From Planctomycetales bacterium (GTDB lineage: Bacteria; Planctomycetota; Planctomycetia; Pirellulales; Pirellulaceae): 58,682 nt of DNA. Below the pieces are notes generated by a model. It saw only the letters and a program-made list of their open reading frames with translations, was not told the DNA's origin and ran no database searches. The stretch lies in contig JAGQPF010000016.1 in NCBI GenBank assembly GCA_020426845.1, forward strand, positions 1-58,682. Reading direction: 5' to 3'. Shown here piece by piece: positions 23,007 to 23,381 of the stretch (position 1 is the stretch's first letter; every line of letters starts with the position of its first letter). Made by a program: the position numbers and the translations under genes.

Positions 23007-23046
23007 AAAAAAGAGCCTCCGACCCAGTACCCTCTGAGTCGGAGGC
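23007..23046 (-). terminator. strong intrinsic terminator of the tRNA-like RNA unit
   Basis: On the minus strand a 13-bp stem (GCCTCCGACTCAG, 23046-23034, with CTGGGTCGGAGGC, 23027-23015; one G-T pair) has the 6-nt loop AGGGTA and is followed by TCTTTTTT. It closes the transcript that carries the 246-aa gene and both tRNA-like modules. Confidence 0.88.
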
Positions 23047-23050
23047 GGTT

Positions 23051-23249
23051 GCACTGGCGCTAATGCGTCCGGTCAACGGTATCCGTTTAAGCCACTTATA
23101 AGGCTAAGGCCCGACGCGTCTTTCGATTGGACCATCCCTGCGGGAGTGCGGGTCAGCGCGGCACGGCGCTGCGAAGAGCAGGGAGCTGGAATTGAACCAG
23201 CATCTCGTCGGCGGTGTTAAGTGGCTCTCGATTTGGCCGGGGACAGTGC
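23051..23249 (-). ncRNA. circularly permuted tRNA-like RNA module 2
   Basis: Reading the minus strand 5' to 3': helix strand AGCCACTTA (23226-23218); anticodon-stem strand CCGACG (23211-23206); 4-nt variable loop; T-arm GCTGG-TTCAATT-CCAGC (23201-23185); 3' acceptor TCCCTGC (23184-23178); T (23177); 35-nt linker with its own hairpin CAGCGC/GCGCTG; 5' acceptor GCAGGGA (23141-23135); D-arm GTC/GAC (23132-23118) with A14-like and G18-like bases; anticodon-stem strand CGTCGG (23116-23111); helix strand TAAGTGGCT (23098-23090). Acceptor (7/7), anticodon (6/6) and outer (9/9) helices are all Watson-Crick. An outermost GCACTG/CAGTGC pairing (23249-23244 with 23056-23051) is possible. There is no 7-nt anticodon loop and no encoded CCA, so it is not a decoding tRNA. 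Confidence 0.82.
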
Positions 23250-23254
23250 GGTTG

Positions 23255-23379
23255 TCAGTCTGGAGCGAGAATCTGAGCTTGATGCGACGCCTCTTCCGGT
23301 TGGGCTACCTCGGCGATCGGAAAAGTGCCGAGGGCAGGGATCGAACCTGCACTGAATCGCGGGTTGAGATTCAAACTGA
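23255..23379 (-). ncRNA. circularly permuted tRNA-like RNA module 1
   Basis: Reading the minus strand from 2 nt after the upstream gene's stop: TCAGTTT (23379-23373) and GAATCT (23372-23367) as outer helix strands; GCGA (23360-23357); variable loop TTCAGT; T-arm GCAGG-TTCGATC-CCTGC (23350-23334); 3' acceptor CCTCGGC (23333-23327); discriminator-like A; 11-nt linker; 5' acceptor GCCGAGG (23314-23308); TA; D-arm GCC-CAACCGGAAGA-GGC (23305-23289) with canonical A14, GG18-19 and A21; TCGC (23287-23284); AGATTC (23274-23269); AGACTGA (23261-23255). Acceptor pairing is 7/7 Watson-Crick. The module has every cloverleaf arm, but the 3' half precedes the 5' half and the anticodon stem is opened and extended. 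A local hairpin TGAATC/GATTCA competes with the outer helix. Confidence 0.82.
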
Positions 23380-23381
23380 GG

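Follow-up and report, generated by a model that had tools for sequence, protein, structure and literature searches.

Among RNAs with a permuted tRNA-like architecture are the bacterial Y RNAs of the YrlA type, whose stem binds Rsr and whose tRNA-like domain binds PNPase (PMC8394870). Genes for Y RNAs may be paired, as in the rsr-yrlBA arrangement (PMC7790460); one genome fetched in the present work (L138) carries two YrlA copies. Two further systems share the permuted order. In permuted tRNA genes of algae and archaea the halves are swapped and a short intervening sequence lies at the acceptor end (PMC3978253), and permuted tmRNA functions as two pieces (PMC3978253 and PMC10085705). Here, we describe a locus that resembles each of these systems in some respects and appears to encode a distinct kind of predicted RNA, linked to proteins of the DUF7873 family.

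The window is the whole stretch of DNA analyzed, 58,682 nucleotides of a Planctomycetales bacterium (assembly GCA_020426845.1, contig JAGQPF010000016.1, positions 1 to 58,682). The original prediction placed on its minus strand two tandem tRNA-like RNAs in circularly permuted order, and the pairings it named are present in the sequence: acceptor helices are complete in both modules (7/7), as are the anticodon-type stem (6/6) and the outer helix (9/9) of module 2 (Table 1). The T-stems also pair 5/5 in both modules. On the minus strand, both heads run from the T-arm through the acceptor 3′ strand, linker and acceptor 5′ strand to the D-arm. Some details changed on closer measurement. The linkers are there, but they are 12 and 36 nt long rather than 11 and 35 nt, and the anticodon-type stem recognized in module 2 has a 5-bp counterpart in module 1 that had been omitted. 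The upstream protein gene is now assigned to a specific partner family, DUF7873. The tandem pair stands as well, although not as two RNAs: a single terminator at the end, a constant order and a closing helix around module 2 make one RNA with two domains more likely.

Table 1. Features of the DUF7873 locus and the predicted two-headed RNA in the window
Feature	Position	Strand	Basis
DUF7873 protein gene, 246 aa	23382..24122	-	PF25283, 354.8 bits, residues 1-243
Predicted two-headed RNA, ~335 nt ahead of terminator	23047..23381	-	Sequence anatomy and comparative support
Leader, piece of 6-nt periodic YUNARN track	23361..23381	-	UNA-triplet periodicity over 65 loci
Module 1 T-arm, GCAGG TTCGATC CCTGC	23334..23350	-	Sequence, detector
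Module 1 acceptor 3′ strand	23327..23333	-	7/7 with 23308-23314
Module 1 linker, 12 nt	23315-23326	-	Between acceptor strands
Module 1 acceptor 5′ strand	23308..23314	-	Sequence, detector
Module 1 U8 and D-arm	23289..23307	-	Sequence, detector
Module 1 anticodon-type stem, 5 bp including one G-U	23284-23288 with 23356-23360	-	Sequence
Conserved core separating the two heads	23255..23278	-	Alignment A4, columns 148-177
Closing helix of module-2 domain, GCACTG / CAGTGC	23244..23249 (5′ strand) / 23051-23056	-	Sequence and swapped-partner test
Conserved AUCGA internal-loop motif, opposite UUAAA 23086-23090	23228..23232	-	Alignment A3
Module 2 outer helix, 5′ strand, 9/9 with 23090-23098	23218..23226	-	Sequence; covariation
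Module 2 anticodon-type stem, 6/6	23206-23211 with 23111-23116	-	Sequence
Module 2 T-arm, GCTGG TTCAATT CCAGC	23185..23201	-	Sequence, detector, covariation
Module 2 acceptor 3′ strand	23178..23184	-	7/7 with 23135-23141
Module 2 linker, 36 nt	23142-23177	-	Between acceptor strands
Module 2 acceptor 5′ strand	23135..23141	-	Sequence, detector, covariation
Module 2 D-arm	23118-23134	-	Sequence
Module 2 U8, D-arm and anticodon-stem 5′ strand	23111..23134	-	Sequence, covariation
Module 2 outer-helix 3′ strand and conserved UUAAACG	23083..23098	-	Sequence, alignment A3, covariation
Terminator-like hairpin (23046-23015, with a 13-bp stem) and T run	23007..23046	-	Terminator scan

The predicted RNA probably begins at the stop codon of DUF7873 and extends as far as the terminator-like hairpin. 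A similar hairpin could be read by eye at the end of the RNA in two other loci (L002 and L006), but the terminator scan returned two such sites in the window against a shuffle mean of 1.8, a weak signal alone. General tools returned nothing for the locus: over the whole window ARAGORN reported no tRNA, and Rfam had no match at gathering thresholds. Folding energy alone gives a modest signal (z -1.74, with 4 of 100 shuffles folding equally well). Support for the RNA is comparative.

Regions 3′ of DUF7873 genes were drawn from genomes, IMG/VR contigs, four plasmid records and 12 of the 73 named phage records, and were scanned with a permuted-module detector that requires a T-arm, six of the seven acceptor pairs, U8 and a D-stem. 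Besides the window, the 117 regions comprise 116 of the loci L001-L117, among which are near-copies and, as L001, the window itself a second time; L035 was left out for an insufficient protein match. In 108 of these regions the detector found one or more permuted modules, and in 74 at least two. By comparison, first-order Markov shuffles (n = 585) yielded 0.005 modules per sequence, against two in the window, and 11 of 116 upstream control regions had a module, some perhaps because the T-arm of one tRNA gene lies beside the D-arm of the next. Given the shuffles and the homologous regions, the modules in the window are not due to chance. Once near-copies and short regions were dropped, 103 regions were left, 66 of which had two well-spaced modules; removal of one wrongly paired case (L012) gave the set of 65 loci used below. 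The nine regions in which the detector saw no module are of several kinds. Two are cut off by sequence ends (L037 and L096), five are matched by the covariance model introduced below (L016, L054, L062, L102 and L106), and the remaining two (L038 and L039) are one identical sequence, in which DUF7873 occurs without a nearby RNA. Two other loci, L029 and L036, lack module 1 as read by eye. Thus, the DUF7873 protein and the RNA travel together.

Their distribution is sparse in bacteria. DUF7873 was found in 14 of 392 genomes of the window's own phylum and in 7 of 396 genomes of the phylum of Actinomadura, and its relatives are encoded in 73 phage records and 424 viral-contig stretches. Annotated tRNA genes are present in 9 of the 12 named-phage regions that were opened, as arrays in L007, L008 and L013. 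Among 14 control genomes, that of Deinobacterium chartae was the sole one with DUF7873 and also the sole one with TROVE. In a Microcoleus phage (L016:5060-5430), about 1.8 kb and another gene separate DUF7873 from the RNA, whose module 1 looks degenerate by eye, so the RNA can stand as a gene of its own. In six bacterial and phage loci (L010, L011, L024, L026, L028 and L033), module 1 has a D-arm of the form TGGYGGAA..GGYAGACRC, often with extra sequence behind it, which we take to resemble that of tRNA-Leu.

The original prediction had named loss of the acceptor, T-arm and outer-helix pairings in relatives as evidence against it; instead, all three are kept with compensatory changes. Alignment A3 covers 57 module-2 domains, and its named structure has 30 pairs. 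In it, 86.5% of cells are paired, as opposed to 55.1% in shuffles and 36-48% (maximum 48.3%) with slid partners, percentages that are partly circular for the acceptor, T and D helices, as the detector demanded them. Covariation in this domain is strong, with a score of 0.802 against 0.227. The outer 8-bp helix was not a selection criterion; 80.8% of its cells are paired and all eight pairs vary on both sides. The anticodon-type stem of module 2 is paired in 65.5% of cells, and all six of its pairs vary on both sides. For module 1, alignment A4 holds 40 of the 49 eligible domains, the nine excluded ones mostly having other D-arms, and scores 0.393 against 0.175.

Duplex energies support a closing helix around the module-2 domain. 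Both flanking motifs could be located in 46 of the 65 loci, and across these the regions preceding AUCGA and following UUAAA form duplexes of -16.3 kcal/mol compared with -13.2 kcal/mol for swapped partners, the lowest of 200 swaps reaching -14.3. A triloop hairpin 3′ of UUAAA is present in 15 of 46 loci, against 5 expected by shuffling. Pairing between the leader and the core is less clear. Its mean duplex energy (-11.1) is lower than with swapped cores (-10.0), and none of 200 swaps was as low; however, this helix shows no clean covariation, since at three variable positions 24 to 29 of 40 sequences are unpaired and several pairs hardly vary. RNAalifold applied to 53 of 66 joined RNAs recovered the tRNA helices, but did not find clear leader pairing.

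Several parts of the RNA are conserved in sequence. A UCGCUC-type stretch is conserved between the heads (A4), and AUCGA stands opposite UUAAA, flanked by two helices of the module-2 domain (A3). Within the 60 nt ahead of the first T-arm, UNA triplets recur every 6 nt: over the 65 loci, 158 were counted at lag 6 compared with 16.9 expected (maximum 27 in 200 shuffles), 97 compared with 14.8 at lag 12, and 61 compared with 12.5 at lag 18. This YUNARN track may be a binding track for DUF7873. We also considered a coding reading of the leader, in which one frame would give tag-like K/R-L repeats. GC-rich phages are expected to use CGN for Arg. Because +1 insertions occur within the track (8 of 40 rows) and CG stands at the head of a triplet only once in 131, this reading was rejected.

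The original prediction had proposed a search of planctomycete genomes with a covariance model of both modules; the model used here, R1, covers the module-2 domain and was built from A3. R1 was run on 54 sources, of which the window is the only training-set member; the run left aside 15 further loci, namely near-copies, truncated ones, L035 and L123. It matched 52 of the 53 non-training loci at E 2.3e-4 or better, the exception without a match being L038. As for overlap with training sequences, L115 nearly repeats L103 and L118 shares one third of its 12-mers with L020, while the others share at most one fifth. Of the 392 genomes of the phylum, 70 were matched by R1 at E 1e-5 or better. Those ranked 1 to 13, with full-length matches at E 2.2e-10 or better, are all DUF7873-positive and account for 13 of the 14 DUF7873 genomes; the other one, G110, has a weak DUF7873 match with an internal stop. 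The best genome lacking DUF7873 scored E 2.0e-8, and its match is YrlA. The 15 weaker places that we fetched consist of two with YrlA at its cut-off (L138, with two matches, and L146), seven that are YrlA-like below the cut-off and six ordinary neighbouring tRNA genes. A partial TROVE match lies within 4 kb in 8 of the 9 YrlA or YrlA-like genomes, two of the eight being weak. R1 therefore separates the DUF7873-linked RNA from the Rsr-linked YrlA.

To our knowledge, DUF7873 has no known function, and our paper search for the family found none. One search returned 7,267 matching proteins, and the closest named relatives of the window protein are planctomycetal (Mariniblastus, Pirellulaceae, Blastopirellula). 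The AlphaFold2 model of the window protein has a mean pLDDT of 90.8. Foldseek found no match for it in PDB or BFVD at E 0.001 or better, the best hit of a sequence search of PDB had E 0.067, and no other Pfam family matched the protein better than E 0.04; no match pointed to a function. Four DUF7873 members had no match in PHROGs and no significant one in the PADLOC defence search, where the best value (E 0.023) came from one protein. Around the viral loci, 129 of 259 ORFs were scanned in Pfam, and no family occurred more than twice.

We next consider the acceptor loops. NCCA directly follows the acceptor in 26 of the 65 module-1 linkers and in 18 of the 65 module-2 linkers; 32 loci have it in one or both modules and 33, the window among them, in neither. 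The discriminator position N73 is A in 50 of 65 cases in module 1, while in module 2 it is U (41/65), G (16/65) or A (8/65) and never C. U precedes the 5′ acceptor strand in 32 (module 1) and 38 (module 2) of the 65 loci, and in 33 of the 44 NCCA modules; G1 is found in 49 and 58, respectively. Ordinary tRNA genes are also present in 21 loci, and in 17 of these they mostly lack CCA. As NCCA is encoded in one or both modules of 13 of these 17, the modules have hardly copied the local tRNA style, with the qualification that several of the 17 loci come from phages related to one another and that in four the tRNA genes number just one or two. In one viral contig (L006:6002-6268), the module-1 linker carries a 267-nt insert; an intron check found no Rfam family at cut-off, and it was kept as a 267-nt linker.

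What might such a locus do? We give an even chance to the explanation that DUF7873 and the predicted two-headed RNA (about 335 nt) together make up a ribonucleoprotein whose mode of action resembles that of the bacterial Ro60/Y-RNA particle. On this view, transcription of the DUF7873 gene would read through into the RNA and stop at the terminator. By analogy with YrlA, DUF7873 would hold those parts in which sequence rather than pairing is conserved, namely the YUNARN leader, the UCGCUC core and the AUCGA/UUAAA internal loop. Each head would sit on an anticodon-type stem that is opened and extended, and would show its acceptor/T/D surface to tRNA-binding proteins while offering no anticodon. 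In phages, where the RNA lies among tRNA genes, the particle might draw in, or divert, enzymes that act on tRNAs or attack them; this phage setting, together with the patchy bacterial spread, makes a role in conflicts over tRNAs plausible. In the least certain step, RNase P would open the acceptor loop and free a CCA end, which is possible considering that about half of the two-headed copies have NCCA at the start of at least one acceptor loop, often with U immediately ahead of the 5′ acceptor strand. We do not make linker cleavage the main claim, because CCA is missing from half of the loci. A bolder version, which we regard as doubtful, would see here a new class of ribonucleoprotein of bacteria and phages: a two-headed, anticodon-less pair of inside-out tRNAs in which RNase P opens the acceptor loops to CCA ends, giving one particle two chargeable or dockable tRNA ends that DUF7873 holds on the 6-nt track.

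The alternative that we rank second, possible although we would not expect it to hold, is that the RNA is a decoy in such conflicts. Heads lacking an anticodon loop would sequester effectors that cleave or modify tRNAs, would themselves stay uncut, and so would shield phage or host tRNAs, DUF7873 serving to stabilize the RNA. The sparse, accessory distribution and the tRNA genes in most of the opened phage regions fit this explanation, and a related proposal, that YrlA could competitively inhibit an anticodon nuclease unable to cut it, appears in PMC7790460. On the other hand, neither a significant defence-system match nor a recurrent protein neighbour emerged, and sequence conservation in the leader, core and internal loop goes beyond what a mere decoy would require. 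Less probable still is a chargeable split RNA, from which RNase P and 3′ trimming would excise both linkers to leave three CCA-ended pieces that become aminoacylated, in the manner of two-piece tmRNA. The encoded NCCA, the U at position -1, the prevalent G1, the absence of C at N73 of module 2 and the tolerance of a 267-nt linker in L006 all argue for it. However, 33 of the 65 loci have CCA in neither module, N73 differs between the heads with no clear identity, and the tmRNA hallmarks considered below (acceptor G3-U70, an Rfam match, a tag frame) did not turn up at the RNA, the leader track being interrupted by +1 insertions.

The two remaining explanations would make the modules tRNA genes of some kind. 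True permuted tRNA genes, circularized and then cut into working tRNAs, would account for the order of the parts, which is that of the algal and archaeal genes (PMC3978253). Yet an anticodon loop is missing, with tens of conserved nucleotides following where the anticodon-type stems open, the outer helix and UUAAACG are kept, and ARAGORN does not see a tRNA, which makes this very improbable. We give the least credence to decayed tandem tRNA genes that are permuted in looks only. A T-arm beside the D-arm of the next gene does mimic a module, and six of the 15 weaker R1 places are just that. Against such remnants stand acceptor strands that pair 7/7 across the linker with compensatory change, conserved parts foreign to tRNA and a covarying outer helix, and the window contains no tRNA gene. 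The Ro60/Y-RNA-like particle remains our preferred explanation.

With these results, the DUF7873 family gains a predicted RNA partner, and YrlA is joined by another type of permuted tRNA mimic, one that does not depend on Rsr. As the RNA is carried by named phages of cultured hosts (Gordonia, Arthrobacter, Rhodococcus), roles of a tRNA mimic are directly testable. Acceptor-loop CCA in loci whose ordinary tRNA genes mostly lack it offers a pointed test of whether such a mimic is processed. The literature titles that we covered, among them few subscription papers or preprints, do not describe this RNA, and an earlier description elsewhere is possible.

Compared with permuted tRNA genes of algae and archaea, to which the original prediction had likened the modules, the order of the halves and the intervening sequence at the acceptor end are the same. 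The likeness ends there: the RNA has no readable anticodon, its anticodon end opens into conserved structure, and joining the halves of either window module gives no 7-nt anticodon loop. With two-piece tmRNA it shares a 3′ part encoded ahead of the 5′ part and an excisable loop between the acceptor strands, but differs in having full D-arms and two heads. A tmRNA acceptor carries G3-U70, which is absent from both window acceptors (GCCGAGG/CCTCGGC and GCAGGGA/TCCCTGC). No tmRNA covariance match coincided with a DUF7873 RNA in 40 sources, and no tag frame was found in the periodic leader track. Gordonia phage Phendrix does have a tmRNA-family match (89 bits; L007:2072-2600), which lies in a tRNA array separate from the DUF7873 RNA and at which the feature table of the record lists no gene.

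The closest likeness is to YrlA (RF02553). The picture of an inside-out, YrlA-like cloverleaf, in tandem behind a protein gene, has been borne out and is conserved in relatives. In both RNAs, a permuted tRNA-like domain with T-arm, closed acceptor stem and D-arm sits on an extended anticodon-type stem, and the gene adjoins that of an RNA-binding protein, Rsr (TROVE) in one case and DUF7873, for which RNA binding is inferred, in the other. At relaxed limits, YrlA is also the best Rfam match, with 18.4 bits on module 1 against a cut-off of 69 bits, a value reached by none of the 40 scanned sources, the window included. Unlike YrlA, the RNA described here has two heads in one predicted molecule, a YUNARN leader, a UCGCUC core, an AUCGA/UUAAA loop, many acceptor loops with NCCA, and DUF7873 instead of Rsr/Ro60 as its partner. 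In the window's own genome TROVE has a single partial match, which covers 63 of 442 positions at 32.7 bits and lies on a different contig, thus not adjacent to the RNA, and among 14 further DUF7873 genomes TROVE is near DUF7873 in one (G065). The Ro-binding pattern GNCGAAN0-1G belongs in the basal stem; it was found anywhere in the RNA in just 6 of 65 loci. On the strength of score, partner and Ro site, we do not file the RNA as YrlA. In G065, the TROVE (Rsr) gene, a possible YrlA-like module (36 bits), a kinase gene and DUF7873 with a one-headed RNA occur together (L148:2214-6992), the TROVE gene, the module and DUF7873 with its RNA all within 5 kb. This contig is a possible bridge between Ro60 particles and DUF7873.
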